A DNA stretch of 26,097 bases from a virus. The notes beneath the pieces are model-generated. The model made no database searches. It was not told the origin of the DNA and worked only from the letters and a program-made list of their open reading frames with translations. The stretch lies in IMG/VR virus record IMGVR_UViG_3300002835_000954, positions 1 to 26,097 of that record, one strand, 5' to 3'. This document shows positions 6,294-25,270 of the stretch, piece after piece; positions within the stretch are counted from its first letter, which is position 1; each line of letters starts with the position of its first letter. The translations under genes and the position numbers were made by a program.

Positions 6294-6334
6294 GCTGGGC
6301 GGTTTATCAGCACTAAATTTAATTTAAAAACGAA

Positions 6335-6676: not shown

Positions 6677-6703
6677 GCAGTGCTTTTCACAAATTTTAAA
6701 AAG

Positions 6704-6913: not shown

Positions 6914-6916
6914 CAT

Positions 6917-6926
6917 TGCACCTAAC
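6917..6926 (+). repeat. Broken attC-like site (left core only)
   Basis: TGCACCTAAC, exact complement of the third cassette's start GTTAGGTGCA (6670-6679). No matching right arm follows before the phage gene at 6956, so the site is truncated or the array end was lost on insertion. Confidence 0.55.
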
Positions 6927-6955
6927 TATCGTATAGGCGAAATAAACGAGATATT

Positions 6956-8898: not shown

Positions 8899-8902
8899 AA
8901 CT

Positions 8903-9262
8903 ATGGCGAACAATACGAACGCTAAAAAAAAGCTGATGCTTGAAGCCCTTGAAAAATCATTGGGCATCGTTACAACGGCATGCAAGGCGGTAGGTGTTGC
9001 AAGGGTAACGCATTACGAATGGGTAAAGCTGGATGAAGAATACAAGGCCAAGGTTGATGAAATCATGGAGGTTCAACTTGACTTCGTAGAAAACAAGCTA
9101 ATCGACCGCATCAACAAGGGGGACACAGTTGCGATAATTTTCTACCTAAACAGCAAAGGCAAGTCAAGGGGCTATAACAGGCCGCATGAAGAAAAGCGGG
9201 ACAACGTAAAATGGCCGAGCAACTTTACTTTCAACATCGTGAAAAACGATGAAGAGGTATAA
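8903..9262 (+). CDS. terS: Terminase small subunit (TerS)
   Basis: 119 residues. The N-terminal helix-turn-helix (GIVTTACKAVGVARVTHYEWVKL, split here between residues ~20 and 42) binds DNA, and a helical oligomerisation region follows (VDEIMEVQLDFVENKLIDRI), then 'GDTVAIIFYLNSKGKSRGY', a segment frequent in TerS proteins. It would recognise the packaging site and regulate the large subunit. It overlaps the large subunit gene by 14 bases, which strongly supports the assignment. Confidence 0.8.
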   Translation: MANNTNAKKKLMLEALEKSLGIVTTACKAVGVARVTHYEWVKLDEEYKAKVDEIMEVQLDFVENKLIDRINKGDTVAIIFYLNSKGKSRGYNRPHEEKRDNVKWPSNFTFNIVKNDEEV

Positions 9263-10568
9263 CTTAAACCCGAAGCAGCACGAAACACTAACCGCAAGCG
9301 AAACCGAACGGCTGTACGCTTATGTCGGTGGCATTCGTTCAGGCAAGACCATAACGGGGGCACATTGGGCACTACACAACATCATTCATCAGCCCGAAAT
9401 AAAGGGCGGTATTTTCAGCAATACGGTTAGCCAGCTGAACACCGCCACGCTATCCGAATTCATTGGCGTACTTGACGCCTACGGGCTATTCAAGGGCGAA
9501 CATTACGTGGCCAACAAAGACCCTGAACGCTACTTCGGTTATAAGTCAAAGTTTGAAAAGCACAACGGCGTTTGGTCATTCATGAACGGGGCACAGGTAA
9601 TCACGTTTAGCATCGAAACAATGATACGAGGCATTGAACTTGGTTGGTGCTGGGGCGATGAGGTGCAAGATGCGGCGATTGATAGCCTTAACATTGTTAT
9701 GGGCCGTATGTCAGGGGCCAAGTTCCCCCGAACGCTGTGGACAATGACACCGCCGATGGACAACCCTGATATCGATGAACTGATATGGGGCGAGAAGCAA
9801 ATAGCCCATACCATCGGCACAACGTATGACAACAGTGCGAACCTACCCGAAGGCTATATCGAGCAACTTGAGAAGACCTACGATAGCCTGACCTTCAAAC
9901 GGGAGGTGTTGGCCAACCGGGTTACGATGTCGGGGCTGAACTGGCTGTATTCATTTGACAGGCAAAAGCACGTGGGAGGTAAGGCGGCATACGATATTAC
10001 CATGCCCGTGTACGTTTCGATTGACTTCAACAACAACCCGTTTACGGCCACATTAGCACACAGGGGGCGGCATCAAGACGGCAACCAGTACATTCACTAC
10101 TTCGATGAGATTGCTTTAACGGCAGACCACATACAGGGCAAGACGTTCATCGAGGCGATGGTTGAAGAAATCTTCAGGCGAACCCCAGCACAGGTGCAAA
10201 ACCGATTGTACTTTGTTACGGGTGATGCTTCGGGTCGTGCCCAGTCGGTAATTGCCAAGGTCGGGCAAAATATGTGGTCCGAGATTGTGGACCGCATGCG
10301 AGTATCGCCAAACAATTTACTTGTGCCGAGGTCGAACCCGCCGCATCAAGAATCAAGGCGGCTATGCAACAGTATCTTTTCGAATTACGATGAGGTGTTA
10401 ATCAACCCGAAATGCAAGGTGCTGATACGGGATTGTGAGTTTGTGAAAGCGTTACCCGATGGCGGTGTTGACAAAGGCAGCCGAACCAAGGTTGATAAAC
10501 GTGCCGATGCCTTGGACTGCCTGCGGTACGATTTGCACGCCAACAATCGGCAGTTCATTTTCAGGTAA
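9249..10568 (+). CDS. terL: Terminase large subunit (TerL)
   Basis: 439 residues. The N-terminal ATPase has Walker A GGIRSGKT (27-34) and Walker B with D137-E138 in LGWCWGDEVQ. The C-terminal RNase H-like nuclease has acidic residues D259 (VSIDFNNNPF), D326 (TGDASGR) and D420 (KRADALDCLRY). It pumps DNA into a procapsid through the portal and cuts it at each end. The length is normal and no motif is missing, so the enzyme looks functional. It is odd that no portal gene follows: the next genes are a 75-residue unknown protein and tail-completion-like proteins. Confidence 0.95.
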   Translation: MKRYNLNPKQHETLTASETERLYAYVGGIRSGKTITGAHWALHNIIHQPEIKGGIFSNTVSQLNTATLSEFIGVLDAYGLFKGEHYVANKDPERYFGYKSKFEKHNGVWSFMNGAQVITFSIETMIRGIELGWCWGDEVQDAAIDSLNIVMGRMSGAKFPRTLWTMTPPMDNPDIDELIWGEKQIAHTIGTTYDNSANLPEGYIEQLEKTYDSLTFKREVLANRVTMSGLNWLYSFDRQKHVGGKAAYDITMPVYVSIDFNNNPFTATLAHRGRHQDGNQYIHYFDEIALTADHIQGKTFIEAMVEEIFRRTPAQVQNRLYFVTGDASGRAQSVIAKVGQNMWSEIVDRMRVSPNNLLVPRSNPPHQESRRLCNSIFSNYDEVLINPKCKVLIRDCEFVKALPDGGVDKGSRTKVDKRADALDCLRYDLHANNRQFIFR

Positions 10569-10598
10569 GTGGTTATAAAAGGGGCAAAATGTGGGGTG

Positions 10599-10615
10599 TT
10601 TGTGCCTTTAATGAC
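10599..10615 (+). repeat. 17-bp repeated intergenic element, copy 2
   Basis: The exact copy of TTTGTGCCTTTAATGAC (other copy at 5959-5975), here 46 bases before the ATG at 10662. It marks a probable transcription start region for the head-tail joining genes. Confidence 0.5.
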
Positions 10616-10661
10616 AACAAAAAAAGCATGCACTTTAAAATCAATTGCATATTTTTAACAC

Positions 10662-10889
10662 ATGCAAGATCACGCTAAACAACTATTTGAGATTAACGAT
10701 ATATGGCCAGGCGATTTAACTTTTCACCGCTTAGAACCCGAAGTGCCGTTGATTTGCTTAACCGTATGTTACAACGGCAGCGATAAACTGGAGTACGGCA
10801 TTAAACATCGAGACGGTGTTGAGAGTTGCAGCCGCCACGAACTAATGACTGTGGTGGATGCCGAAATCAAACGTATCACAGGCAAATGA
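10662..10889 (+). CDS. Hypothetical protein (75 aa)
   Basis: A 75-residue protein of unknown family with no membrane segment. It includes the strand-like PLICLTVCYNGSDKLEYGIKH and a C-terminal helix. It occupies the place directly after terminase where a portal gene would be expected, but is far too small to be one. ATGA overlap with the next gene. Confidence 0.6.
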   Translation: MQDHAKQLFEINDIWPGDLTFHRLEPEVPLICLTVCYNGSDKLEYGIKHRDGVESCSRHELMTVVDAEIKRITGK

Positions 10890-11389
10890 CAACCAAAGAA
10901 TACATCGCAAAGCTGAACAAGGCTGAGCGGGGAATCAACGGCAAACGGTTTGTCGGCTTGTCTTCAAGTGTTGGCCGCATGCAGTTTAAACGGGTGTTTG
11001 CCGAGGGCTTAGACGCTGGAGGCGGGCCGATTAAACCCGACTATTCAACCAAGCCTATAAGCATTGGCAAAAACCAAACGCCTGACAAATCAACGGCAAA
11101 GTTTTATGAAGGCGGCTATCGTGAGTTCAAACGTGAATTAGGCCGAGGCAAGATGGTATTGTTTCGGCTATTCAGCCAAATGTATTTGCAGTCCATTGTT
11201 AACCCTGAACTGAAAATTAGCAACACAGGGTTCGTTATAGCGACAGGCATGACCTACAACGCTGGCAACCCGAAAGGTAAAGTTGATGGGCTTTTGGACA
11301 AATATGGCGATGCTTTTAAGTTTTCGGACGCTGAACGCAAAGAATTTACCGAAAGGGCCCAGCAAATAGTCGTAGATTTGTTTAAATGA
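10886..11389 (+). CDS. Neck/tail-completion-like protein
   Basis: 167 residues from ATG 10886. The frame is open further upstream (ATG 10826), but the ATGA junction with the previous stop and the read-through of that gene make 10886 the likely start. The central part (STAKFYEGGYREFKRELGRGKMVLFRLFSQMYLQSI, in two pieces) has the 'Y..GY.....+..G+....V.L..SG.M..S' pattern of phage virion morphogenesis proteins of the HK97 gp10 / Mu gpG type, which join head and tail. It ends in an ATGA overlap. The family call is by pattern and is moderate. Confidence 0.5.
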   Translation: MTTKEYIAKLNKAERGINGKRFVGLSSSVGRMQFKRVFAEGLDAGGGPIKPDYSTKPISIGKNQTPDKSTAKFYEGGYREFKRELGRGKMVLFRLFSQMYLQSIVNPELKISNTGFVIATGMTYNAGNPKGKVDGLLDKYGDAFKFSDAERKEFTERAQQIVVDLFK

Positions 11390-12180
11390 TAAGCGACATT
11401 CTATCGTACTTGAACGCCCGACTGCCCAATATTTCGGCAGTAACACGGCCTTTGTGCCAACTTATAGAAGAAACGGGCAAAGATGGCAACCTTCGCACCT
11501 TCCCCGTAGTTTACGATGGCAACGGCAACCTTGACTACATTACAAGGTTCGATTGGCGTACAGGCATGTCCTTTTGGCTGAAGAACGGGGCCGAAGATAT
11601 CGAACTGCTTGACCGGGTACGTGCCAACAAAGAACGGGTGCAGATTACCATTCCCTTAAAGTTTCATTGGATTGGTACGCGAAGCACGTGGCAGAACGAT
11701 ACGCAATACCTTGAACAGTACATCTTGCTTGCACTTCAAAAGGCGGTAACGGTTGACAATATCCCAAGCCTACGGGCTACCCTTGGCCTTGACCGCATCA
11801 AAACGGTTGTAACCAATCGGGAGTACGGTGCCGAAACCCTTAACGGCGTGTTTGACAACATCGACCTTCGGCTACCCTTGGACATGGCGGCTGCGATGCT
11901 GGAGGTTAACTTGATTTTAACAGGCGATGCCGATTGCATTGTGGGCGAATCTTGTGCATCACCGGGCGGCATTGCACCAATATCATGCGAGATTGACCTT
12001 GCACGAAAGCACGATTTCGTTGCACCTTATTCGTACTGCGGCACGGCCTACCTTGGCACGTCAACCAGCACACCTACTTGGACAATTTACCGAATACAGG
12101 TTGCCAATAATGGCAGCATAACAATTAAAACGGCAGTTAATGTCGCTTGGGATAACCGATTAACAGCAATTTATACTTAA
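11386..12180 (+). CDS. Probable tail terminator / head-tail joining protein with extra C-terminal domain
   Basis: 264 residues. The first ~185 residues have the alpha/beta look of a tail terminator, with the segment IDLRLPLDMAAAMLEVNLILTG that I associate with these proteins in Bacteroidota phages. The last ~65 residues (from about SCEIDLARKHDFVAPYSYCG) form a separate small beta-rich module with two cysteines, ending VNVAWDNRLTAIYT; its style is like tail-fibre domains. The gene overlaps the preceding one by 4 bases. Position between a neck-like protein and a fibre supports the role, but it is not proven. Confidence 0.5.
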   Translation: MISDILSYLNARLPNISAVTRPLCQLIEETGKDGNLRTFPVVYDGNGNLDYITRFDWRTGMSFWLKNGAEDIELLDRVRANKERVQITIPLKFHWIGTRSTWQNDTQYLEQYILLALQKAVTVDNIPSLRATLGLDRIKTVVTNREYGAETLNGVFDNIDLRLPLDMAAAMLEVNLILTGDADCIVGESCASPGGIAPISCEIDLARKHDFVAPYSYCGTAYLGTSTSTPTWTIYRIQVANNGSITIKTAVNVAWDNRLTAIYT

Positions 12181-12184
12181 AGTT

Positions 12185-12478
12185 ATGAACACAAACAAAC
12201 CAATCACCGTTGATGGCGTTACCTACAACAAGGTAGCCGCATCACTATCTTCAATGCCATTGTTTAACGCTACTGAGGTAGGCCAAACTGTTGCAATGCG
12301 TTTGCAGTATTTCGCTACCGATGAGGCTGGTGATGTGCTTCGGCCTGAAAACCCAAGCCAATACGATGTTCCTATTGTGTTTGGGGACGTTTTAACTTCG
12401 CAAGATGCCGATGCGGTCAAGGCGTTCGCTAAGATTACCGAGGCGATTCAAGAGTACATTAACGCAAAAGGTCTTTAA
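12185..12478 (+). CDS. Hypothetical structural protein (97 aa)
   Basis: A 97-residue soluble protein, unknown family, starting 4 bases after the previous stop and ending 2 bases before the fibre-like gene. The tight spacing puts it in the virion gene operon, and it may be a chaperone or small partner of the fibre protein. Confidence 0.55.
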   Translation: MNTNKPITVDGVTYNKVAASLSSMPLFNATEVGQTVAMRLQYFATDEAGDVLRPENPSQYDVPIVFGDVLTSQDADAVKAFAKITEAIQEYINAKGL

Positions 12479-12480
12479 TC

Positions 12481-13782
12481 ATGGCGAACTACAAAGCGGT
12501 AGCCAGCGGCAACTGGTCGGCATTGGCTACGTGGCAAGATAATTCAAGTGGCAGTTTTATTGCATCTACGGTGTTGCCGGGTGCAAGTGATGTTGTTTAT
12601 TCGAATAACTTCACGGTTACAATTGACCAAGATATCATGGTCAGTTCAATTAGGAATACGGCGGCTACTGGCATTGTTCAGAGCGGCAGTTTTAGTGTCA
12701 CTGCTTCAAGAAATCTAACATTCACAGGAATAGGAGTTTATAGAGAATCGGCAGGTGTTCCCTGCTTAATAGTCAATGCTCCTGCTCAAACTGTAAATAT
12801 TGTGGGTAACATCCAGCATGAGATTGGTAGCCCCGTATCAATTTCTGTATTACAAGTGTTGGGCGTAAATTGCGTCGTTAATTTAACGGGTAATGTTTTT
12901 TCGAATACAGCTGTGGATATAAGACCAACGATTTTAGAAGTCCAGGCTTTGGCAACAGTTAATATCGTCGGAAATTTATTTTGGTATAACACTCGAGTTA
13001 ACGAGCAGTTGCTAAACAACAAAGGAACCGTAAATATCACGGGGAATTGCATAAATTATCAAGGTGGCACAAACAATGCGATATTATCAGGGAAGGTCAA
13101 TGTAGTAGGAGAAGTAAGGACTAATGGAGCAGGAGCAATAATCCATAACTTGCAGCCCCCATCAAGCGTAGCAGCAAATCTTACTATGTCAGGAGCCGTT
13201 GTACTTGCAACAACGAATTGGACACAAGGGATTCAGGGTGGTACATTTGTATTCACGAGCAATACACAGAACAGTATAAGTTTCAAAACAGAACTAAACA
13301 CAAACCAAGTACTTTACACCCCCGGTGTGGCAACTGGCCACCCAGCCACCACCAACGTAAGAACTGGTATTGTTTACGGCCCTACAAATAACCTAACAGG
13401 TACTTGTGCTGTGCCTCCTGCTGCTGCTGTTAGCCTTGGTGTTCCTGTTGACAATACGGTGGGGACTGCAAGCCTTGATGCTAATGCCTTGGCGGCAGCA
13501 TTAAACACAAGCCTATCGGCAAGCCTACCAACACCGATATCTGCAAGTTTACAAGCAAGTTTGCCAACGCCGATATCTGCAAGCCTACAAGCAAGTTTGC
13601 CAACGCCTATTGCAACAGCACTAAACACAAGCCTATCGGCAAGTTTGCCCGCCGCAATCGCACCGCTATTGTGGGACGAATCGGTTACCAACATAACCAC
13701 GCCAAACAGCATTGGCGAGCGGTTAAAGAACTGTTCTACCGTTGCGACCACGGGGGCACAAATTGCATCATTTAACCCGTAA
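12481..13782 (+). CDS. Tail-fibre-like / receptor-binding protein
   Basis: 433 residues. The N-terminal GNWSALATWQDNSSG and the following long series of short beta strands rich in N, T, V, G (residues ~60-290) look like a right-handed beta-helix, as in tail fibres and spikes. Residues ~340-390 contain a 12-residue repeat (TPISASLQASLP, 36-bp DNA unit, two near-identical copies plus degenerate ones with NTSLSASLP), probably a helical or hinge stalk. The end (LLWDESVTNITTPNSIGERL, then CSTVATTGAQI) matches a module common at the C-terminus of phage fibres. The middle of the gene (~12650-13320) is more AT-rich, with different codon choice, which suggests exchange of the receptor-binding part. 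Confidence 0.65.
   Translation: MANYKAVASGNWSALATWQDNSSGSFIASTVLPGASDVVYSNNFTVTIDQDIMVSSIRNTAATGIVQSGSFSVTASRNLTFTGIGVYRESAGVPCLIVNAPAQTVNIVGNIQHEIGSPVSISVLQVLGVNCVVNLTGNVFSNTAVDIRPTILEVQALATVNIVGNLFWYNTRVNEQLLNNKGTVNITGNCINYQGGTNNAILSGKVNVVGEVRTNGAGAIIHNLQPPSSVAANLTMSGAVVLATTNWTQGIQGGTFVFTSNTQNSISFKTELNTNQVLYTPGVATGHPATTNVRTGIVYGPTNNLTGTCAVPPAAAVSLGVPVDNTVGTASLDANALAAALNTSLSASLPTPISASLQASLPTPISASLQASLPTPIATALNTSLSASLPAAIAPLLWDESVTNITTPNSIGERLKNCSTVATTGAQIASFNP
13498..13650 (+). repeat. Tandem 36-bp repeats in the fibre gene
   Basis: CCGATATCTGCAAG recurs at 13534 and 13570 (period 36), and TAAACACAAGCCTATCGGCAAG occurs on both sides of them (from 13502 and 13622; split motif). In-frame slippage here would change stalk length in steps of 12 residues. 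Confidence 0.75.
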
Positions 13783-13785
13783 ACC

Positions 13786-14205
13786 ATGCGACCAATTAAC
13801 CACATCGTTTTGCACACCACGGCCAGCAACATAACGGCCACGGCAGACAGCATTAACCGATACCATAAAAAGGTGCTGAACTGGGGTTCGCCCGGTTACC
13901 ATTTTATCATTGAACGTGATGGCAAAGTAGTTGACAACTGGCCAATTGAAAAGACCACCAACGGAGTAAAGGGCCATAACCACGATAGCATTCATATCAG
14001 CTACATTGGCGGCATTGATGCGAATGGTAAGCCTACCGACAACCGTACCAAAGAACAGAAGCAAGCAATGGCCGAACTGGTTACCAAGCTAACCGATAAG
14101 TTCCCAAACGCTACGGTATTAGGGCATCGGGACTTTCCTAATGTCAACAAAGCCTGCCCATGTTTTGATGCTGGGGCTTGGTGGGCATCCGTTAAGAAAT
14201 GTTAA
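13786..14205 (+). CDS. N-acetylmuramoyl-L-alanine amidase, T7 lysozyme type (endolysin)
   Basis: 139 residues, a single amidase_2/PGRP-like domain with the zinc ligands and catalytic residues of T7 lysozyme in place: H10 (IVLHTTAS), Y38 (SPGYHFII), H114 (VLGHRDF), K122 and C124 (NKACPCF). It cuts the bond between muramic acid and L-alanine in peptidoglycan. It has no signal peptide, so it depends on the holin-like membrane protein encoded at 16482. It lies 3 bases after the fibre gene, in the late operon. Confidence 0.9.
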   Translation: MRPINHIVLHTTASNITATADSINRYHKKVLNWGSPGYHFIIERDGKVVDNWPIEKTTNGVKGHNHDSIHISYIGGIDANGKPTDNRTKEQKQAMAELVTKLTDKFPNATVLGHRDFPNVNKACPCFDAGAWWASVKKC

Positions 14206-14260
14206 AAAACCTTTTCGGTGTTGGGAAACACTTAATTTCATACAAACAATTGGGGAACTT

Positions 14261-15298
14261 ATGACTGAACAACAAGTAAAAATCATTGACAGCTACGTTG
14301 ATACCCAAGAGGCGGGCTTCTTCAAACGCACATTAGCCCGCAAAATTGTAATGGAAAATCCGGGTGCATTTGAGCAAACCAACAAAGAGGTTGATAGGGT
14401 GCGATGTTCAATCCGCTACCGAACGGGTGCGGCAGGCGACAGGCTAAAAAACTTTGCAACAGTTAGCGGTTCGTTGCGGGAAAACCTATACAACCCTGAG
14501 CAGATGAAGCCCAGCGAATACATGCAAGCGTTTATGGGCCGAGGGGAAAAGACCAGCAAAGAGGTATGGCATCTACCGAAGAACATCCGCAAGCCCTTGG
14601 TTTTGTCCGACCTTCATTTCCCGTACCATGAACTGCCAGCAATCGAAACAGCTATTGACTACGGGTTCAAAAACGGCGTTGATGCGATATACCTAAACGG
14701 CGATGTAATCGACTTCGCTAAGATTAGCCGATGGGAAAAAGACCCAGCGTTGATGTCGGCCCCCGTTGAGGTGCAAATGGTTCGGGACTTCTTGGCTGGC
14801 CTTGTAAGCCTTGGACTACCTGTTTTCTACAAGCTGGGGAACCACGAAGATCGCTGGGATAGGTACATACTTCAAAACGCACCTGAGTTGATTACCCTGC
14901 CCGGGCTTCAACTAAAGGCCGCATTGGGCCTTGATGAACTTGATATTGAGTTAATCGACAGCCGCCAACACGCTAAGTTTGGCAAGCTAAGTGTACTGCA
15001 TGGCCACGAATTTGGGGATAGCATATTCAGCCCTGTAAACCCAGCACGGGGATTGTTTCTGCGGGGTAAGGCATCTGTATTGGCTGGCCACAACCACCAA
15101 ACATCGGAGCATCACGAAAGCGACCTGAACAGCAAAGGAGTTGCTTGCTTTTCTACGGGTTGCCTTTGCGACTTGCAACCAGCTTACCGCCCATTTGCAT
15201 ACACGAAATGGAATCACGGGGCTGCGATTGTTGAGATTGATGAAGATGGCGATTTCAGCGTTGAAAACTTTCGCATTGATAACCGCAAGGTTCGATGA
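14261..15298 (+). CDS. Calcineurin-like metallophosphoesterase
   Basis: 345 residues from ATG 14261; the frame is open back to 14141 but that part overlaps the amidase. Residues 1-105 are a helical, basic domain of unknown fold (FFKRTLARKIVMENPGAFEQ). Residues ~112-280 hold all metallophosphoesterase motifs: D117-L-H119, G147-D148, G193-N-H-E196, H248-G, and G276-H-N-H279. Such phage enzymes may be nucleases or phosphatases acting on nucleotides; the presence of the N-terminal domain suggests a nucleic acid target. It ends in ATGA, coupled to the spanin-like gene. Its place in the lysis region is unusual for a DNA enzyme. Confidence 0.85.
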   Translation: MTEQQVKIIDSYVDTQEAGFFKRTLARKIVMENPGAFEQTNKEVDRVRCSIRYRTGAAGDRLKNFATVSGSLRENLYNPEQMKPSEYMQAFMGRGEKTSKEVWHLPKNIRKPLVLSDLHFPYHELPAIETAIDYGFKNGVDAIYLNGDVIDFAKISRWEKDPALMSAPVEVQMVRDFLAGLVSLGLPVFYKLGNHEDRWDRYILQNAPELITLPGLQLKAALGLDELDIELIDSRQHAKFGKLSVLHGHEFGDSIFSPVNPARGLFLRGKASVLAGHNHQTSEHHESDLNSKGVACFSTGCLCDLQPAYRPFAYTKWNHGAAIVEIDEDGDFSVENFRIDNRKVR

Positions 15299-15873
15299 AC
15301 TGGCTGGGGTTTATATCGAGGCATTACGGGCTTATCGCAATCGCTGCCGCATTCATATTGGGCAAGCAATCGTGCAACCACATGGCCGAGGCCGAGCGGC
15401 ACAAAAGCAATTATGAGGCAATCCAGCAAACAACGGGAAGCACAGCAAGGCGTTTGGACTTGACGGTTGAGCAATTAGCCGCCGAGAACAAACGTCTGCT
15501 GGATAGCCTCAAAATAAAAAGCGGCAAGGTTGAGTTCGTGTACCGCACCAAGTGGCGAACCAAGGTCGACACCTTTGAGGTTGAGGTGGAACGCTGGCAT
15601 ATCGACTTGATACCATGCCCTATTCAATCCTTTACGGTTGACACCAACTGCATAAAGCTGACCGCATTTTTGCACCCCGATTCGGCGGCCAAGGTAACGC
15701 TAACAACCGACTACGATTTGAGCGTGGTTGGATATTGGCAGCGGCCCGGCAAATGGTTCGGTGCGAAACTTTGGAACGGATTGCTGGGCAAAAAAGAAGC
15801 CTACATAAAGATTGCATCGCCTTGTTTTAAAGATTCTGCCGTATATTTGAACAAATTTAGCCAAGCACAATGA
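15295..15873 (+). CDS. Spanin-like membrane-anchored protein
   Basis: 192 residues. A single N-terminal membrane segment (~10-23) is followed by a polar coiled-coil-like region (~31-75, HMAEAERHKSNYEAIQQTTG, EQLAAENKRLLDSLK) and a beta-rich periplasmic part with two to three cysteines. This architecture and the position between amidase and holin-like genes resemble an inner-membrane spanin (Rz-like), which joins inner and outer membrane during lysis. No lipobox protein partner (Rz1) is evident. The family is not recognised, so it could also be a virion protein. It is coupled by ATGA overlaps on both sides. Confidence 0.45.
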   Translation: MNWLGFISRHYGLIAIAAAFILGKQSCNHMAEAERHKSNYEAIQQTTGSTARRLDLTVEQLAAENKRLLDSLKIKSGKVEFVYRTKWRTKVDTFEVEVERWHIDLIPCPIQSFTVDTNCIKLTAFLHPDSAAKVTLTTDYDLSVVGYWQRPGKWFGAKLWNGLLGKKEAYIKIASPCFKDSAVYLNKFSQAQ

Positions 15874-16244
15874 ACCCAATTTGCATTCAAGACCTTACAA
15901 CGGCCAAAGTATTAGCCGCACCGACAAGTTGCCAAGCAACCGCTAACCTGAACATCGGCACATTGGCCCCTTCAACGGCTTATGATGTATTTATTAGTAA
16001 TATCGGCAGTCAAACTACTATTAAATACGACATCGTTACCAACGGGGCGGGCCTTGCAACCATATCCTTGCAAACCAACGCACTGTTCTTTAACGGCAAC
16101 AATTTGTATTCGTTGCACGTTGTGGCGAATAACGATGACATTGCCGACTACGTGCTGATTGACAACCTATACGTTGGATTCGTGCTGTACTTTTGGCGAA
16201 GCAATACAACCGCCCCGACCACGCAAAACATTCAGGTAGTTTAA
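15870..16244 (+). CDS. Hypothetical beta-rich protein (124 aa)
   Basis: 124 residues, mostly short beta strands with an aromatic C-terminal strand (VGFVLYFWRSN), no signal peptide. It resembles small Ig-like or lectin-like domains of virion decoration proteins in style (APSTAYDVFISNIGSQTTIKY reads like a fibronectin/Ig strand pair), but I cannot name a family. ATGA overlap with the upstream gene. Its last codons contribute to the inverted repeat before the next promoter. Confidence 0.55.
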   Translation: MNPICIQDLTTAKVLAAPTSCQATANLNIGTLAPSTAYDVFISNIGSQTTIKYDIVTNGAGLATISLQTNALFFNGNNLYSLHVVANNDDIADYVLIDNLYVGFVLYFWRSNTTAPTTQNIQVV

Positions 16245-16253
16245 CTACCTTTG
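16234..16253 (+). promoter_or_regulatory. Late-type promoter element ACTACCTTTG, copy 2, with inverted repeat
   Basis: ACTACCTTTG (16244-16253) contains the -7 element TACCTTTG, 22 bases before the ATG at 16276. AGGTAGT (16234-16240) and ACTACCT (16244-16250) form a perfect 7-bp inverted repeat around TTA, so a dimeric regulator could bind over the -7 box. Confidence 0.55.
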
Positions 16254-16275
16254 ACCATACCAAAACCAAAAAACC

Positions 16276-16485
16276 ATGACACCAAAACAAACCGCAGTAG
16301 AGTGGTTGGAAGTGCAACTAAATGAAAATGGTAAACTTTCAGTAGTTGATTTTTATCAAGCCAAAGAAATGGAAAAGGAGCAGAGTAATGAGGCTTTTAA
16401 ACACGGAGAATTTTGGATATTACAAACAATTGCAGAAGCCGTGAACAATACTACAACGAAAACCTTTAATACCAAAAAACCATGA
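16276..16485 (+). CDS. Conserved small Bacteroidota phage protein (69 aa)
   Basis: 69 residues, MTPKQTAVEWLEVQLNENG...YQAKEMEKEQSNEAFKHG. This 'TAVEWL..QL...F.QAKEMEKEQ..EA...G' pattern is a very common uncharacterised family in Bacteroidota phages and prophages. Helical, no membrane segment. It is AT-richer than its neighbours. ATGA overlap with the next gene. Confidence 0.7.
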   Translation: MTPKQTAVEWLEVQLNENGKLSVVDFYQAKEMEKEQSNEAFKHGEFWILQTIAEAVNNTTTKTFNTKKP

Positions 16486-16781
16486 TTGAAACCTTGCTTT
16501 TTACTTCACTATTCATCTTCGGCGTATGGCTATCTACCGCCGAGGGCATGATTGGCGACCAACTTCGCTGGGAGTTTATTAGCCTATGGCCAAACCTTGC
16601 CAAGCCCGTAATTGATTGCCCGACATGCATGGCTTCGGTTTACGGCTCCTTGGCTTATTGGGGGCAGCACATGATCAGCGGCAACACTACCGACCTATTA
16701 ACATTCATCGGCTGGCCTATCTTCGTTGTTTGCCTTGCTGGGCTGAACGGCATCATCTTAAAACTTGCCAAATGGTCATAA
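16482..16781 (+). CDS. Holin-like membrane protein
   Basis: 99 residues with hydrophobic segments at about 4-18 (TLLFTSLFIFGVWL) and 70-93 (LLTFIGWPIFVVCLAGLNGI), and a possible third around 48-62. A CPTC pair (C46, C49) in VIDCPTCMASVYG recalls small membrane proteins of the DUF1360 kind. Size, membrane topology and position in the lysis/late region fit a holin, but holins cannot be named from sequence alone. The next gene's start overlaps by 10 bases. Confidence 0.5.
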   Translation: MIETLLFTSLFIFGVWLSTAEGMIGDQLRWEFISLWPNLAKPVIDCPTCMASVYGSLAYWGQHMISGNTTDLLTFIGWPIFVVCLAGLNGIILKLAKWS

Positions 16782-17425: not shown

Positions 17426-17628
17426 GCGACTTTGACAGCGATTGCTTATTTTTGTGTAACGGTGAGCATTCGCAGTTCGTTGATTTGATGTCTTCGGGCA
17501 CGATTAACGACTTCATCCGCTTGCTAAAACTTAAAACAAAAGAAGCCGATGGCCATCGACAAAATAATAGTGGAGTTTCAGGCGGAAACGACAAAACTCA
17601 AAAAGGAATTAGACGACCTAAAAGGTAG
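17329..17628 (+). CDS. -1 frame extension or overlapping gene before the tape measure (GT-like)
   Basis: The ORF is in the -1 frame relative to the upstream gene, overlaps its last 97 bases, and covers the otherwise empty 17426-17548. The part past 17380 reads like real protein (NSWRDSVYNWLSDFDSDCLF, then FIRLLKLKTKEADG), while its last ~26 codons overlap the tape measure start. CAAAAAG at 17368-17374 (zero-frame codons AAA AAG) could allow a -1 slip, though it is not a canonical XXXYYYZ heptamer. Independent starts at 17329 or 17341 are the alternative. Confidence 0.45.
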   Translation: MAGAMASQRPVSKQKEGHTKVNSWRDSVYNWLSDFDSDCLFLCNGEHSQFVDLMSSGTINDFIRLLKLKTKEADGHRQNNSGVSGGNDKTQKGIRRPKR

Positions 17629-20479
17629 GCTCGGTAATGTCGAAACTGCGGCAGAGAAGGGCGGCAAGAACATAACAAAGTCATTTGATAATGCTGGCAC
17701 AGGCGTTAACAAGTTAGGTGCTAACCTTAAAAACTTAGCTGGAACTGTTGGGCTTGCCCTTGGTGCAGCTGAGGTAATAAACTTCGGCAAGCAATCCGTA
17801 CAGGCGGCATCGGCATTTGACAAATCAATGAGCAATGTGGCCACCTTGGTTGACACCAACGTGGAAAGCATTAGTTCAATGGGCAAAGCTGTTCAAGAAA
17901 TTGCAGCCCGAACCCCCGTTGAACTTGGCCAATTGTCTTCGGCTTTATATGACATTCGTTCCGCTGGAGTTTCAGCTGGGGACGCTATGTCCGTTCTTGA
18001 AAGTTCGGCTGAGTTAGGGGTTGCTGGCTTGGCTACAACTGCCGAGGCTGCAAACATAATGACATCGGCTGTGAACGCATTTGCCGCTGAGGGGTTAAGT
18101 GCCGAGCAGATAAGCGACATTCTATTCAAAACCGTAAAGGCGGGCAAAACCACATTGGCCGAACTTACCGCACAATTCGGTGGGGTTGCACCTGCCGCCG
18201 CCGCCGCTGGGGTTTCGTTGGCGGACTTGCAAGCATCAACCGCCGCCATCACTACATTGGGAACGCCAGCCGCTGCCGCACAAACGCAGCTTAAACAGGC
18301 GTTAACTGAAATGCAGAAGCCCGGCAAGGAGTTGTCGAATATATTCAAACAACTGGGGGCCAAGGACGGCATTGACTTAATCAAAACATCGGGCGGCCTT
18401 GGTAATGCGTTCAAGTTAATCAAAGAGGAAGCCGAGGCATCGGGCATGACCGTTGCACAGGTTACTGGGAGCGTTGAAACCGCATCGGCTATCCTTGCCC
18501 TTGGTGGCACGGTAAACGAATCTTATACAGCCACCTTGGCCGATATGACCACGGGTGCGAATGCTGTTAACGTAGCATTTGAAAAGCAAGCCCAAACCGC
18601 AGATGCTCAGTTTCAGTTGATGCAGAATGCGTTTCAAAATATTCAAATTCAATTAGGTCAAGCATTGATGCCAGCTTTGCTTGATGGCATTGAAACCCTA
18701 AATGAGTTCGTTTCTGCGGTTGACTGGCAACAAGTATTTGGGGGAATAGGCGATGCTTACAACGAATTTATTGGCCCTTGGAGAGAGATTTTTTCTGCAC
18801 TTGGCGAGGTGTTTGATTTGCTGACCGCAAATTCAACAACAGGGGAAACAACTGCCAGCGTAATGGACGCTATCGGAGTTGCCGCAAAGATAACCAGCAC
18901 TCCAATACGTTTAATTGCCAAATACATTAAGGCGTTAACCGAAAATGTACTCATACCTTTAATTACAACAGGACAAAAGGTAATAACTTGGTTCAATGAG
19001 GTTCGGGAAGGCGGCGGCTTTGTTGGTGCTATATTTAACGGCATCGCTTCAGCGGCTGGGGCGGTAATAGGCAAACTGGAAGGCGTTGCACAGTTTATCG
19101 GAATTATTGATAGCGATGAAGAAAAATTGCACAAAAATAGAATGCAGCGTGATGCCGATTTTAAAAAGTCAAACGAAGAATACGCAGCAAGAAACTTTAA
19201 ACAGCAAAAACAAAGAACTAAGGATGAAGAACGCATAATGGCATTAAAGGCAAAGACCGCATATCTTGGCCAAAAGCTAACCAAAGAAGAAGAGGCTGAG
19301 TTAAAAAAGCTAACGGCAGCGACAAATCAAAACACCGAAAAAGTAAAGGAAAACGGCAAAGTTAAAAAAGATGCAACCGAGGCTCAAATAAAAGCACTTG
19401 AAGAACAAAAAAGATTGCAAGAAGAGGTGGACGCTATTTTTAAAGAGGCGGCAGATAGCCAAGCAGAATCGGAACAGAAAAGGGCAAAAGAGGTTATTGC
19501 ATTTTACAACGAGGCTGCATTTACAAATAAAGACAGGCTAAAACAGCAATTGGCAGATGAGGAGGCAATGTATGCCGAATTATTAGCCACCAACATATTA
19601 AACGAGGAGCAAAAACTTGTTATTGCGGATAGGTTTGCAAAAATGCGTAAGGAAATTGAAGGTACGGAAGGAGAAAAGGCAACTGAAAACCAACTAACCA
19701 ACATTCAAAAGGTTGAATCCAAAATGGGCGAGGTATTCGGTGCGGTTAATTCGGTACTTGGCCCCGCGATGGACGCATTGAACGGGTACTTTGCCCTTCA
19801 ATTAAACAATCTTGAAAAGGAAAAGAACGAACGGCTTGCCAATGAAAACCTAACAGCCGAGGAACGGCTACGCATCGAGGAAGAATACGAGGCAAAAAAG
19901 AACGCAATCTTAGCCGAGCAGTTTGAGGTCAGCCGAGGCAGTCAAATCATTCAGGCGATAATGTCATCGGCACAGGCGGCATTGAACGCCTTTACTTCAA
20001 CAGCCTTGCTATTCGCCCCAGCAGCCCCAGCAGCAGCGGCAGCGGCAGCGGCGTTCGGTGCTGTTCAAATCGGCATCATAGCAGCCCAGCCCAACCCGTA
20101 CAAGTTCTTTGAGGGTACTGACTATTTGCAGTTGGGCGGGAACCCCAAAGGCAAGGACACCATTCCTGTAATGGCACACGAAGGGGAAGCGATTATACCA
20201 ACCGGGAAGAACTTGCAGTACCCGGGCCTTGCCAAATCGTGGATTGACGGCAGCCTTGATGGGTACATTAACAAAAACTTCGTGCGGCCCGCCTTGATGG
20301 AACAACAGCGGCAAGCCGAGGAAGATTTTGCCGACCGCTTGGCCGCATCAATGGCATTGCAAATGTCCAGCAACTTCGATGACTACCGCCTTTTCAGGGC
20401 AACCAAAGAACAAACCGCCGTGCTACGGGACGGATTCCAAACCATGAAACAAACACGCAAAAAACTTAGGGGAGCATGA
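17549..20479 (+). CDS. Tail tape measure protein
   Basis: 976 residues, the largest protein here. It opens with a helical part, then residues ~80-340 show the TP901-1-type tape measure domain (SAFDKSMSNVATLVDT, AARTPVELGQLSSALYDIRS, GMTVAQVTGSVETASAILAL). Long charged coiled-coil stretches follow (~530-760, with EEQKRLQEEVDAIF and AEERLRIEEEYEAKKNAI). An alanine-rich hydrophobic segment (~815-850) probably crosses the host membrane during DNA entry. At about 0.15 nm per residue this predicts a tail near 145 nm, so a siphovirus-like tail. ATGA overlap with the next gene. Confidence 0.9.
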   Translation: MAIDKIIVEFQAETTKLKKELDDLKGRLGNVETAAEKGGKNITKSFDNAGTGVNKLGANLKNLAGTVGLALGAAEVINFGKQSVQAASAFDKSMSNVATLVDTNVESISSMGKAVQEIAARTPVELGQLSSALYDIRSAGVSAGDAMSVLESSAELGVAGLATTAEAANIMTSAVNAFAAEGLSAEQISDILFKTVKAGKTTLAELTAQFGGVAPAAAAAGVSLADLQASTAAITTLGTPAAAAQTQLKQALTEMQKPGKELSNIFKQLGAKDGIDLIKTSGGLGNAFKLIKEEAEASGMTVAQVTGSVETASAILALGGTVNESYTATLADMTTGANAVNVAFEKQAQTADAQFQLMQNAFQNIQIQLGQALMPALLDGIETLNEFVSAVDWQQVFGGIGDAYNEFIGPWREIFSALGEVFDLLTANSTTGETTASVMDAIGVAAKITSTPIRLIAKYIKALTENVLIPLITTGQKVITWFNEVREGGGFVGAIFNGIASAAGAVIGKLEGVAQFIGIIDSDEEKLHKNRMQRDADFKKSNEEYAARNFKQQKQRTKDEERIMALKAKTAYLGQKLTKEEEAELKKLTAATNQNTEKVKENGKVKKDATEAQIKALEEQKRLQEEVDAIFKEAADSQAESEQKRAKEVIAFYNEAAFTNKDRLKQQLADEEAMYAELLATNILNEEQKLVIADRFAKMRKEIEGTEGEKATENQLTNIQKVESKMGEVFGAVNSVLGPAMDALNGYFALQLNNLEKEKNERLANENLTAEERLRIEEEYEAKKNAILAEQFEVSRGSQIIQAIMSSAQAALNAFTSTALLFAPAAPAAAAAAAAFGAVQIGIIAAQPNPYKFFEGTDYLQLGGNPKGKDTIPVMAHEGEAIIPTGKNLQYPGLAKSWIDGSLDGYINKNFVRPALMEQQRQAEEDFADRLAASMALQMSSNFDDYRLFRATKEQTAVLRDGFQTMKQTRKKLRGA

Positions 20480-22620
20480 CAGCAAGATTATTCATAAACG
20501 GGACTGACTACACGCCCGACACGATAAGCGACCTGAACGATTTAGAGGAGCATGTTTGGTACGATATTGAACGCAAGGCATTCCTTCGAGAAATAACGGG
20601 TACGGTACTATTGGGCGGCCAAGGGTTCCGCTATTTTCAAAACCTATTGCGTACCAACTACGATACCCAAGTACCTTGCACCTTGTCAAGATTTGATGAG
20701 TACGCTGGGGTTTGGGAAACCGTATTGCATGGCCTTGTATTCGTTACCGATTGCACCTTTGACCTATACGCCCAAACATGCGAGATTCAACTGGTGGACA
20801 ATTCGTTCTTTGCCAAGATTGAAAACAACAAGAGCATTGAATTTATTATTGGTTCAGGGCGGTCGAAGAACGGCACAAACATCACAGGGGTTGCCAGTTC
20901 AACACAAATTCAGGTATTGAACAACCTGCCAACGCCGCCGCTTGTTTACTTCCCAAACACGGTAACTGGCTGGAGCAGATACGAGGCGATGAAATTCCTT
21001 GTAGCCGCTATGACCGACAACCAAATTGGCTTTTATTCCGATGCGTTACAGGAGTATTTAGACCCAGTTCAAAACGTGCTGAACCAAGGTTACCTATTCA
21101 GCGGCGAGGCGTTACGGGACGGCGTCAAACAATACGGCCCTAACATTTCATTTGAGTACCTATACAGCGACCTTGCCAAGCTATACAACTTGGTTCAGTA
21201 CATTGAAAGGGATTCGGTCGGCAACCTTCGCCTTCGTGTTGAAAGGTTCGATGACATACGGCAATCGGGCGTAATAGACACCAAGCACGTAGCTACGCCT
21301 GTAAAGGAAATGATAAACAGCGACACGTTATATTCGTGCGTTCGACTTGGCAGCAAAGATGAAGACCTTGACGGGTATTTTGCATTTACGCCTTTTCTTT
21401 CAACCTTCGAGGAGCAGTTTTCGATGAGTTACCGCAGCAACGTGGACAAGGAACTTGACCTAAGAATGCAAGCCCTAATCACGGACACAAACCTAATATA
21501 CTACACCCAAACGCAGCAAGGGTTGGCCAACCCCGATAGCAGCAAAGACAACGAGGTGTTTTACGTGATATGCCGAAAGCACAACGGCATTGACTGGGAC
21601 GAAAAAGGCACGTTGTATTTTAGCGGGGAATACTATTTAAACGGCGACATCAGCAATCAAAATGTATTGATAAACAACTTTACAGGGTTGCCCGCCACGA
21701 TTTTTAAGCAGTACCTAAACCTTTTTACAACTGGCTTTTATGCCAATTCATCAGGGCCGTATGTTCAACAACCATTATTAGCCAACACCCCATTTGAATT
21801 TGATTTACTTGAATTAATTGCATCAAAAGGCTCTCCCGGAATAAACTGGAACGGAACAAGTACAGGAACATTTGGAACAGGTATTGTGCCTTCAAGTCAG
21901 TTTTATTGCCAATGGAATAACGATTCGGTTGCCCCAGCGTTTGACGGAGGAAGCAACTACAACAACATCACGTATGAATATACAATTCCAGTAACTGGAT
22001 ATTATGTTTTTTATGGGATTCTTGATTTAATTACAAAAACAAACTTGGGGATTGTTATTGGGCCGTCATTTTACGTTGTTAATTTAAACCTTTGGCGAAC
22101 CGATTCAAGCTATACTACTGGCAATATTTTGGCTCAGTTTTCCGACAACCAAAACGATTTTTTAACTATTCCCCCCATTCCTTTCTTGGTTAAGAAAATA
22201 AAAATGGAGGTTTTTACAATCCCTATTTTATTAAATGCAAACGATAAGATATTTTTAACCATTGATTATGTTGCACCTACTCCAAGTCAATTGTTTATTT
22301 ACGAAAGCAGCCACTTTACATTAAGATTTACCAACGTGGACGGCGGCGATGCCGTTCAGGTTGAAGACGGCAACAACTACCTACTAAAAAACGAATGGTC
22401 AGGCAACTTGCCCCTACCAACATGGCAGCAAATAGCGGCATCGCCGTTCAGCCAATTAAAGTATCAGGTCAACGATGCGGGCGAGGGGCGAAATATGTAC
22501 ATTCTTGACATGACACGCAATTTGCTTTCAGGGGAAACCGAGGCACAACTGGCTGGCCGACTGGTTGACCAAGTGCCGCCTGAGTTTGAAAACCTGAACA
22601 GCATAGAAGAACCCGAATAA
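20476..22620 (+). CDS. Tail tip/baseplate protein with inserted jelly-roll-like domain
   Basis: 714 residues. The N-terminal ~400 residues (MTARLFINGTDYTPDTISDL, ending with the RVERFDDIRQSGVIDT region) look like the tail hub / distal tail proteins that follow tape measure in Bacteroidota phages. Residues ~420-615 (DNA 21730-22325) are more AT-rich and read like a TNF/C1q-type jelly roll (YTIPVTGYYVFYGILDL, then LLNANDKIFLTIDYV), a fold often used for glycan or protein binding. The C-terminal ~95 residues return to phage-like composition. The insert was probably acquired or exchanged and may take part in host recognition. Confidence 0.65.
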   Translation: MTARLFINGTDYTPDTISDLNDLEEHVWYDIERKAFLREITGTVLLGGQGFRYFQNLLRTNYDTQVPCTLSRFDEYAGVWETVLHGLVFVTDCTFDLYAQTCEIQLVDNSFFAKIENNKSIEFIIGSGRSKNGTNITGVASSTQIQVLNNLPTPPLVYFPNTVTGWSRYEAMKFLVAAMTDNQIGFYSDALQEYLDPVQNVLNQGYLFSGEALRDGVKQYGPNISFEYLYSDLAKLYNLVQYIERDSVGNLRLRVERFDDIRQSGVIDTKHVATPVKEMINSDTLYSCVRLGSKDEDLDGYFAFTPFLSTFEEQFSMSYRSNVDKELDLRMQALITDTNLIYYTQTQQGLANPDSSKDNEVFYVICRKHNGIDWDEKGTLYFSGEYYLNGDISNQNVLINNFTGLPATIFKQYLNLFTTGFYANSSGPYVQQPLLANTPFEFDLLELIASKGSPGINWNGTSTGTFGTGIVPSSQFYCQWNNDSVAPAFDGGSNYNNITYEYTIPVTGYYVFYGILDLITKTNLGIVIGPSFYVVNLNLWRTDSSYTTGNILAQFSDNQNDFLTIPPIPFLVKKIKMEVFTIPILLNANDKIFLTIDYVAPTPSQLFIYESSHFTLRFTNVDGGDAVQVEDGNNYLLKNEWSGNLPLPTWQQIAASPFSQLKYQVNDAGEGRNMYILDMTRNLLSGETEAQLAGRLVDQVPPEFENLNSIEEPE

Positions 22621-22630
22621 ACTACCTTTG
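22621..22630 (+). promoter_or_regulatory. Late-type promoter element ACTACCTTTG, copy 3
   Basis: It starts on the base after the preceding stop codon. The -7 element TACCTTTG (22623-22630) ends only 4 bases before the ATG at 22635, so transcription from it would give a leaderless message or a start within codon one. Confidence 0.5.
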
Positions 22631-22634
22631 TATT

Positions 22635-24389
22635 ATGGCAATTAGAAACGCACAACCGATACCTTACAGCAGCCCGATATTCTACGGGGAGGGCGAACTG
22701 TCATTCAACGAGCAGATAGCCCAAGAATGCGGCTTTTACGCTTCGCCCATGTGCCTACCTTGGGATTCCAGCGAAGATTTTTGCTTTCAATTCAAGGCGG
22801 GAGAAACGGGCAGCAATTTAATAACATGCCTACCCGTAAAAACAGGCACGGCAACGGGCGGCACAGCTTCTACGTTGGTTGATACAGGCGGCAACTTTAT
22901 TGTTAACGGCATACTGCAATACCAATTTGTTCGCAACGTGGTAACAGGGGACACCTTTGCGGTAAATACAGGCGGAGTGGCCGCTACCACGTTAACACTT
23001 GTTGGAACGCCAAGCGGGGCAAATGCTTTTATTGCTGGCCAAGGTTACGCAATTTACAGCGTTTTTCTTACCGTTGCATCAATTACAGAGATTAACAACG
23101 TGAGCATATTGGCCGACCATTCAATTTGCTTTAATAGGTTTAGCGGCGAGGTGCAAATTAAATTTCCTGTGGGGGCGTCTGGCAATTGGTATCGTGGCAC
23201 GTTTGATGTTACTTCGTACAGCCAAGGCACGGCTTCGCTAAACGCAGCATTAGGCCTTACCCTTTACACGCTGCCGATTGCATCGCCCGGCACATTTGAT
23301 TGGTACTTTGGCGAGCCGCTTAACATTAACCGATTGCAGTTTTTGACAACGGGTGAGTTTACGGGCTGCATTTCGTTATGCAACAGTGAGGCATATTTGG
23401 TAAACAGAACCTACGGATACAGCGTAAACGGCGGGGCATGGACAGAATTTACCTACACGGGCGGCGGCTTGCAAAGCGGCATCATTGAAAAGTGTATTGA
23501 ACTGCCTGAGGGCTGCGATGTTTCGGTATGCTTAAGCGAAGAAGCCGAATGTGCGGTATTTCAAACGATTGGGCAAGATGGCAATTGGGACACCGATGAA
23601 GCGGGCGGCATTTCAATTGAAGGCACTCAGGTTTGTTTCGATGGCAGCAGCAAAGATGATTTTGCTTATGCCGAAGAAATTGGCTGCGACATTGACCAGC
23701 AAGTTACCAACATTGAATTTGAGTTGACCATTAGCGGGCATGCTATGGGCAATGTTCAGGTTTGCATTCAAAACACCGACCCTTTCGCACCGGGCGAGGT
23801 TTGCTCAACCCCACACGGCAGCAACGGGGTGCATACCTTTACCCTAAGCAACTTCGGCATGGCCACATCGTTTAAACGCATCATCATCAAAGCCCACAAC
23901 AACAACACTACCCTTTGTGCTACCCTAAAATACAAGATTCAAAACTTCCAGCCCGAAACATTTGCTTGCAGCGAGTGCTACCACGTTAAAGAACTGGACT
24001 GCGAAACCGAACTAACTTGGAACAACGATACCAATTCATTCGGCCATGCCTACAATACGGGATATACAAACCGAATGTACGTTGAGGGGCGGCTATTGAA
24101 CGGTAAGATTGTAAGCCTTGCCCACGATGAACGCAAAGGTGTTGATTCTTACCAGCGTTCGTTTTTTAGCAACGGCAGAAAGGTAGAAGAACTTGCCATT
24201 GATGCGATATTTCCTGCCGCCCACCAAGCTATTGCGGTTGGACTTATGCACCGCAACTTCTACGTGAACGGGGTGCAGTACGTTAAGATTGGCGAATACG
24301 AACCCGACTATTCGGAGGCTGCCGAGATTGCACCGTGCATTGTTGAGGTAGCGAAGAAAGACCAACGGTTTATCGTTAACCCGCTGTAA
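22635..24389 (+). CDS. Large tail tip / adhesin-type structural protein
   Basis: 584 residues, cysteine-rich for a phage structural protein (more than 20 Cys, several in pairs such as CSECYHVKELDC). The first ~60 residues (FNEQIAQECGFYASPMC) are followed by beta-rich, glycine- and threonine-rich domains (~70-290), a central domain with EGCDVSVCLSEEAECAVF, and a C-terminal ~140-residue part (LTWNNDTNSFGHAYNTGYTN, RMYVEGRLLNGKIV) that I associate with tail-end proteins of Bacteroidota phages. It probably forms the tip or host-binding structure. The Cys pattern suggests disulfides formed outside the cell. Its stop overlaps the MuF gene start. Confidence 0.55.
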   Translation: MAIRNAQPIPYSSPIFYGEGELSFNEQIAQECGFYASPMCLPWDSSEDFCFQFKAGETGSNLITCLPVKTGTATGGTASTLVDTGGNFIVNGILQYQFVRNVVTGDTFAVNTGGVAATTLTLVGTPSGANAFIAGQGYAIYSVFLTVASITEINNVSILADHSICFNRFSGEVQIKFPVGASGNWYRGTFDVTSYSQGTASLNAALGLTLYTLPIASPGTFDWYFGEPLNINRLQFLTTGEFTGCISLCNSEAYLVNRTYGYSVNGGAWTEFTYTGGGLQSGIIEKCIELPEGCDVSVCLSEEAECAVFQTIGQDGNWDTDEAGGISIEGTQVCFDGSSKDDFAYAEEIGCDIDQQVTNIEFELTISGHAMGNVQVCIQNTDPFAPGEVCSTPHGSNGVHTFTLSNFGMATSFKRIIIKAHNNNTTLCATLKYKIQNFQPETFACSECYHVKELDCETELTWNNDTNSFGHAYNTGYTNRMYVEGRLLNGKIVSLAHDERKGVDSYQRSFFSNGRKVEELAIDAIFPAAHQAIAVGLMHRNFYVNGVQYVKIGEYEPDYSEAAEIAPCIVEVAKKDQRFIVNPL

Positions 24390-25270
24390 TGACCCGCAAG
24401 GAACGGCTTATAAAGAAAATCGCCCAAAGCATGGACGATGTGCCCGATGCGTTTTTTAGAGGCGTAAAGGCGGCACAGCGTGAGGCGTTTGCTTTGATGG
24501 TTTCGGAGTTGGCCGACCTTGCCCTTGATGAAGCTGGCAACGTAATCATAAGCCAAGGCAACTTTGCAAAGGTGCAAACGCTTACTAACAAGATGAAGGC
24601 CGCATACAACAACCCTAAATACAGCGAGGCGTTGAGGGGCTTTGTTGATAGCATGACCGAGGGTGCAGAACTTTCGGCAAAGCTAATGGGGGTAATAACC
24701 GGGCAGGCATACACGCAAAGTGCCAAGGTTCAGGCCATATTGGGTAACGCTAAAAGCACAACCTTAGATTTACTATCTACCAATGCCCCAGCCGATGCCG
24801 CCGCCGCCTTTCGCAAGGTCATTGAAAACAGCGTGGCCACGGGCGAAAACTTTGGCCAAGTGCTTCGGAACGTGCGAAAGAACATTGAAGGTAGTGCGGA
24901 CTTTCAGGGCAGAATGGAAAGGTACGCCAAGCAGAACGCATACGATTTCTATTCGATAAGTCAAGCCCAAGTCATTAACGAAATGACCGAAGAACTTGGC
25001 TTTGAGTTCTACGAATACATTGGCGTTGACGTGAAGGGTACGCGTAGTTTTTGCAGCCAGCGAAACAATCAAATATACCACAGCAAAGAGGTAGAGGCAT
25101 GGGCTTCGCTAAATTGGGACGGCAAGAACAGGGCAACGAATTCAAGTACTATTTGGGCACTTCGTGGCGGTTACAATTGCGGGCATCAGTTAATTCCCGT
25201 GGCAACCGAAGATGTGCCGCAAAATGTTAAAGACCGGGCCGAGGCTGCTGGGTTTTATAAGCCTGAATAA
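24389..25270 (+). CDS. MuF-like head morphogenesis protein
   Basis: 293 residues. The C-terminal domain (residues ~205-272: YEYIGVDVKGTRSFCSQRNN, then ALRGGYNCGHQLIPV) matches the phage Mu protein F family, with C222, C264 and H266 in the expected places (...D.RTR..C....... GGY.C.H...P). The N-terminal ~200 residues are helical. MuF proteins sit in the capsid near the portal and help head assembly. Normally the gene follows portal; here it ends the tail cluster, 14 kb from terminase, and neither portal nor capsid genes are near it. The 3' end overlaps the convergent minus-strand gene by 16 bases; I see no terminator between them. Confidence 0.8.
   Translation: MTRKERLIKKIAQSMDDVPDAFFRGVKAAQREAFALMVSELADLALDEAGNVIISQGNFAKVQTLTNKMKAAYNNPKYSEALRGFVDSMTEGAELSAKLMGVITGQAYTQSAKVQAILGNAKSTTLDLLSTNAPADAAAAFRKVIENSVATGENFGQVLRNVRKNIEGSADFQGRMERYAKQNAYDFYSISQAQVINEMTEELGFEFYEYIGVDVKGTRSFCSQRNNQIYHSKEVEAWASLNWDGKNRATNSSTIWALRGGYNCGHQLIPVATEDVPQNVKDRAEAAGFYKPE

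Follow-up and report, generated by a model that had tools for sequence, protein, structure and literature searches.

Gene content and closure of the circle

The window analyzed here, the whole of an IMG/VR virus record of 26,097 bases, begins and ends with the same 140 bp (1–140 = 25958–26097) and therefore describes a circle of 25,957 bp (Table 1). The end repeat is present in one copy in every relative that carries it, and any exact repeat within the circle is shorter than 40 bases; with its ends in single-copy sequence and no longer repeat available, the circle was not closed at a repeat. A minus-strand gene encoding 375 aa (25255..425) crosses the join in frame. Because relatives run colinearly across position 1/25958, we read the join as natural; a misassembly at this point was considered and rejected on the basis of that colinearity and of the single-copy end sequence. 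The 375-aa gene combines a glycosyltransferase-like part with a methyltransferase-like part, is conserved in the 37–38-kb phage family described below, and is, besides its 119-aa HTH neighbor, the only long gene that opposes the rest.

Table 1. Features of the window and their coordinates.
Feature	Position	Strand	Remarks
End repeat	1..140 (= 25958–26097)	.	Circular closure mark; in single-copy sequence
Glycosyltransferase/methyltransferase-like gene	25255..26097 + N-terminal part 3–425	-	375 aa; function by sequence reading only
HTH/sigma-region-4-like protein, 119 aa	422..781	-	PF08281 E = 0.001, under its cut-off
Conserved family protein, 176 aa	865..1395	+	97–100% identical in full relatives that have portal and capsid candidate
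98-aa gene	1513..1809	+	Last left-flank gene common with 38-kb backbone; also adjoins imported block in 65-kb phages
474-bp tract	1823..2296	.	Exactly identical to 65-kb phage G034; left-switch zone
Imported block	2298..5933 (approx.)	+	~3.6 kb; main proteins 96–100% identical to two 65-kb phages
Terminator-like boundary	2307..2353	+	Intrinsic-terminator-like sequence GCCCCAGCCTTGGGGCTTTTT
466-aa protein	3252..4652	+	Likely replication protein; family-A-polymerase-like motifs DIVNSQ, HDS (putative motif reading)
282-aa protein	4707..5555	+	100% identical in both 65-kb phages
108-aa protein	5607..5933	+	Last gene of imported block
Conserved intergenic sequence	5934..5990	.	Right switch
Cassette of 59-, 71-, and 69-aa genes	6014..6955	+	Near-identical to ordinary 38-kb-type contig G001
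MSQLIL gene, 76 aa	6956..7186	+	First right-flank gene common with 38-kb backbone
ParB-N-like protein	8404..8898	+	PF02195 E = 7.5e-6
Terminase small subunit (TerS)	8903..9262	+	phrog_4044 E = 2.5e-8
Terminase large subunit (TerL)	9249..10568	+	PF03237 E = 2.3e-12; phrog_2 E = 3.3e-31
Neck/tail-completion-like protein	10886..11389	+	167 aa from ATG; conserved in full relatives; putative name
Virion-associated protein, 264 aa	11386..12180	+	N-terminal 73–80% conserved in full relatives
Fiber-like repeat protein, 433 aa	12481..13782	+	Exchanged with 65-kb phages
Amidase-like lysin	13786..14205	+	Read from sequence; 81–99% identical in relatives
Metallophosphoesterase	14141..15298	+	PF00149 E = 1.9e-7; phrog_221 E = 4e-38
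Tape measure protein	17549..20479	+	phrog_991 E = 6e-57
Tail-tip-like protein, 714 aa	20476..22620	+	Position after tape measure; alleles 30–99% identical
Tail-associated protein, 584 aa	22635..24389	+	
MuF-like head morphogenesis protein	24389..25270	+	phrog_595 E = 1.1e-5; PF04233 E = 5e-4, under cut-off

Genes for the terminase, MuF, the tail, and an amidase are present on the circle. Family models recognize TerS, TerL, the tape measure, a MuF-like protein, a metallophosphoesterase, and two further products, a TylF-type methyltransferase and a ParB-like protein; searched over the whole record, the Pfam MuF model stayed below significance. The TylF-type O-methyltransferase (7761–8411) is 98–100% identical in some relatives and missing from others, as a patchy accessory gene. 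No integrase was seen in family searches that took in some but not all of the small ORFs, or in a reading of the ORFs.

A preceding sequence-only reading had described the ORFs, their strands and coordinates, and the in-frame closure as they are found here, and its central observation, that portal and capsid genes are lacking, is borne out. Family-model searches give no portal or capsid match among the window's ORFs, and neither the 595-aa portal of a close relative nor the 336-aa protein that neighbors that relative's capsid candidate has a match in the window. Gene-by-gene comparison with three relatives finds the portal, the scaffold candidate, and the capsid candidate with its neighbors all missing; the 25,957-bp circle is thus without genes for portal, scaffold, or capsid. 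The ORFs at 865–1395 (176 aa), 10886–11389 (167 aa), and 11386–12180 (264 aa), singled out there for fold searches against capsid and portal, are not portal or capsid, since full relatives have them beside a separate portal and capsid candidate. The assertion that every ORF over 150 aa was otherwise accounted for was mistaken in that it passed over the 466-aa (3252–4652) and 282-aa (4707–5555) ORFs, which make up the imported piece.

The 37–38-kb relatives of the backbone

Searches of IMG/VR with the terminase, MuF, and tail-tip proteins return dozens of related contigs, and phages near-identical to the backbone of the window are present in that collection. They form a population of 37–38 kb, examples of which are IMGVR_UViG_3300042390_000452, 3300042309_000414 (circular), and 3300042542_001827 (circular); G020 and G004 are complete circles of 38.1 kb and 37.4 kb with 127-bp end repeats. 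The backbone DNA of the window is 85–97% identical to that of ordinary relatives, its terminase is 95–99% identical to that of 38-kb phages, and most backbone genes have 92–100% amino acid identity to the nearest record, the alleles of the tape measure, tail-tip, and fiber being variable. The backbone has no independent divergence from the ordinary phages and falls inside their mosaic variation. On these comparisons, we assign it to an ordinary member of the 37–38-kb population, with which the window has in common the gene order for the terminase, tail, MuF, amidase, and glycosyltransferase/methyltransferase genes.

Where the window has its 3.6-kb block, the population has head and replication genes. 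The order in the relatives runs from MuF through the glycosyltransferase/methyltransferase gene (minus strand), the 119-, 176-, and 98-aa genes, and a small cassette to a 585–595-aa glycosyltransferase-like gene, followed by the portal (phrog_7376, E = 2e-20), a 131-aa protein, a 267-aa scaffold candidate, a 354-aa capsid candidate, the 336-aa protein, and a holin (PF05105). There follow, to the loader as in G002, an SLT transglycosylase, Erf, an exonuclease, small genes, SSB, further small genes, and a DnaC-like loader, and then the 76-aa MSQLIL gene, a VRR-NUC-like gene, the ParB-like gene, TerS, TerL, and the tail. Every long relative has the portal and the 336-aa protein, and in all of them the interval bounded by the 98-aa and MSQLIL genes, about 15.3 kb in G002 versus 5.1 kb in the window, holds the genes missing from the window. 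The stretch without a counterpart in the window comprises the glycosyltransferase, portal, scaffold, capsid candidate, holin, SLT, Erf, exonuclease, SSB, and DnaC genes and amounts to ~14.7 kb.

Full relatives therefore have their head genes upstream of the terminase and downstream of MuF. The succession of TerL, a 75-aa protein, and a tail-completion-like gene, which the sequence-only reading had remarked on, is present as described and is normal for the family, full relatives having the same. The 354-aa protein is named a capsid candidate because it follows the scaffold candidate and is conserved; an AlphaFold2 model of it (10-sequence alignment) had a mean pLDDT of 34, fold searches with this model gave nothing below E = 0.001, and its profile found no PDB relative. 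Across 17549–22620, the tape measure and the 714-aa tail-tip protein occur as strongly different alleles with sharp borders in otherwise near-identical phages, among which the tail-tip alleles show 99% versus 30% amino acid identity.

The imported block and its two junctions

The imported block occupies the place of the relatives' portal, capsid, holin, and replication genes. Its 466-, 282-, and 108-aa proteins have 96–100% amino acid identity to those of two 65-kb phages, the only phages that match (G033 and G034; IMGVR_UViG_3300044730_001016 and 3300042478_001888). These full-size phages have a terminase different from that of the window and their own 744-aa portal (phrog_6547), and they are otherwise unrelated to the 38-kb type; what they have in common with the window is the block together with its flanks, the 98-aa and MSQLIL genes having homologues on either side of it in the 65-kb phages. 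The swap is one clean block, and we are highly confident that the window represents a backbone of the 38-kb type in which the head-and-replication stretch was exchanged for ~3.6 kb of the 65-kb type.

The 466-aa protein is likely a replication protein. It aligns at 28% identity over 139 aa with a Hymenobacter plasmid protein, the DIVNSQ and HDS motifs being common to both, and has no notable match in Pfam, PHROG, NCBIfam, PADLOC, or the PDB; AlphaFold2 returned a mean pLDDT of 36. It could represent a minimal replication protein of a new kind, belonging to phages and plasmids of Bacteroidota. In the search for a host, no genome contig matched the 466-aa protein or TerL.

Exchange between the two phage types extends beyond the block. 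Pairs of 38-kb records alternate between long mismatch-free tracts and sequence of 5–10% divergence, and the fiber, amidase, metallophosphoesterase, and small genes are common to 38-kb and 65-kb phages; together, these patterns indicate that exchange, including recombination within the 37–38-kb population, is frequent. The fiber and amidase region (12013–14187) has 92–95% DNA identity in parts with G034, and the 433-aa fiber has 48% amino acid identity with that of the same phage, which suggests that receptor-binding genes are exchanged between unrelated phages.

The left switch falls in the 474-bp tract, parts of which are also present at the contig ends of ordinary 38-kb phages. Over 1–1949 the ordinary contigs G003 and G029 are 99.95% identical to the window; they end there, having exactly 127 bases in common with G034, whereas the portal-bearing contig L109 starts at window position 2172 with exactly 126 such bases and continues through the boundary at 2307–2353 into the glycosyltransferase and portal genes. 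Three contigs from other samples thus break inside the tract, and from these base counts we read the breaks as fork marks of a k = 127 graph. In 38-kb phages the terminator-like boundary comes before the glycosyltransferase-portal block, and in 65-kb phages it comes before the imported block. Both it and the conserved sequence at 5934–5990 look like recombination boundary sequences; they are short conserved intergenic sequences that bound small exchangeable cassettes in both phage types.

Because the tract is common to both phage types and contigs break there, an assembly error is possible, and the left switch, lying in a repeat that exceeds every common k-mer in length, could be either a recombination or a mis-walk. 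The assembly alternative holds that the sample contained both a 65-kb phage and a 38-kb phage of the ordinary type, that the assembler crossed at the 474-bp tract and back at the intergenic sequence, and that no portal-less molecule existed; we give it a substantial probability, somewhat short of even. The exactness of the tract in both types, the k = 127 forks, and the lack of essential genes from the product are all consistent with it. The 140-bp end repeat, compared with 127 bp in G020 and G004, suggests another assembler; it does not fit k = 127 and may reflect one run at k = 141. In a benchmark, 10–30% of circular MEGAHIT and IDBA-UD contigs were false, compared with <2% for metaSPAdes (PMC5610896).

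The right switch is harder to reconcile with such an error. The longest exact stretch common to the parental types there is 48–56 bases among known strains, far below k = 127 or 141, so that the assembler would have had to be confused over at most 56 exact shared bases, as against 474 at the left switch. The right-switch zone of the window also holds variants seen in no relative. The contig ends in single-copy sequence rather than at a repeat, and pruning of the portal and 65-kb branches with retention of the backbone and the block would conflict with a constant depth for each parent. The short shared stretch at the right switch and the single-copy closure thus favor a real molecule. Counting against one are the position of the left switch in an exact tract common with the 65-kb phage, a backbone that has not diverged from ordinary phages, and the occurrence of the right junction in no other record, as judged by a pattern scan that could miss near-identical records.

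Origin of the circle and comparison with satellites and defective phages

On balance, we lean slightly toward the circle being a real, recent, helper-dependent recombinant of two unrelated co-circulating phages. A 37–38-kb phage would have traded its ~14.7-kb head-and-replication stretch for the 3.6-kb block of a 65-kb phage, in which the block lies between homologous flanking genes, by crossovers in conserved sequence, namely the 474-bp tract and terminator on the left and the short intergenic sequence on the right. The recombinant would retain the terminase, MuF, the full tail set, and the amidase and gain the likely polymerase-type replication protein; it would be without its parent's portal, capsid, holin, transglycosylase, recombination, and helicase-loader genes and would build no heads. 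Its terminase would recognize and package its own DNA, with replication probably carried out by the 466-aa protein. Spread would be expected only when the 38-kb parent infects the cell as well, and the heads of that parent would presumably be filled by virtue of the 95–99% identical terminase; such dependence on helper heads is reasonable only if the molecule is real. Since the backbone has not diverged from ordinary phages, the element would be recent rather than an old satellite lineage. The full claim, of a real self-replicating phage without portal or capsid that has its own tail and terminase and the replication module of a second phage, feeds on the heads of its parent, and is abundant enough to assemble, we hold to be unlikely.

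The sequence-only reading had proposed a satellite that builds its own tail and takes its heads from a helper. The lack of head genes stands, whereas the separate kind of satellite does not, the backbone being ordinary, the change a single block swap, and a second record lacking. An established lineage with its own tail and terminase that steals heads, the mirror image of capsid-forming phage-inducible chromosomal islands (PICIs), would fit the gene content and the junction ORFs, which are all intact. We consider it very improbable, because a backbone within the mosaic variation of ordinary phages gives no sign of a separate lineage, no integrase was seen (although some satellites are without one; PMC10690885), and IMG/VR searches with the 466-aa and 282-aa proteins and the right-junction pattern found no second member, that is, no other portal-less record or block on this backbone, near-identical records being the kind that such searches could miss. 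Least probable of all, and barely credible, is that the right junction is real and the circle incomplete, a normal-sized recombinant carrying both blocks in which the portal-capsid block was skipped at a duplicated 474-bp tract: ordinary contigs do break at the tract and the terminator boundary does precede both blocks in different phages, but the end repeat lies away from the tract, repeats of at least 40 bases are absent from the circle, and no relative has the tract twice with both blocks.

If the recombinant is real, two unrelated phages infecting the same cell would have given rise to a replicating, head-less, dependent element through a single double crossover in conserved intergenic sequence, and such a crossover would be one possible route to satellites. 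If the assembly is in error, the record warns that circular closure and an in-frame join do not protect against a chimera of two phages, and that circular records with odd gene content should first be compared with full-length relatives.

Among known systems, capsid-forming PICIs make heads and take tails (Alqurainy et al. 2023, as cited in PMC11389934). The circle would have in common with them the encoding of one half of the virion, the other half coming from a helper. It differs in that the half is the opposite one, no integrase or island is seen, there is no second member, and what it encodes duplicates genes of the presumed helper itself. Streptomyces satellites have encapsidation genes and lack replication genes (PMC10690885). 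The literature searched describes no satellite that has tails and terminase and borrows heads, which is not proof that none exists. PICI, P4-like, PLE, and cf-PICI satellites are recognized by recurrence as independent lineages and by an integrase and satellite regulatory genes; the block was found on this backbone in no record but the window. Nothing marks the circle as a new, tail-only class of satellite, and either a defective recombinant phage or an assembly chimera describes the window better than a satellite does. It has the terminase, tail, and MuF order of the 37–38-kb phages without their portal, scaffold, and capsid genes, so that virion genes that are essential, and that close relatives have, are missing, as in a helper-dependent defective phage.

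Defective or deletion phages dependent on a wild-type helper have lost essential genes by one recombination and kept the packaging signal and terminase. The circle resembles them in both respects; it differs in that the lost genes were replaced from another phage rather than simply deleted, and in that it is known as an assembled sequence. On the unlikely full claim of a real, self-replicating circle that feeds on parental heads, it would correspond, among DNA phages, to defective interfering genomes, or would mark the emergence of a satellite that steals heads.
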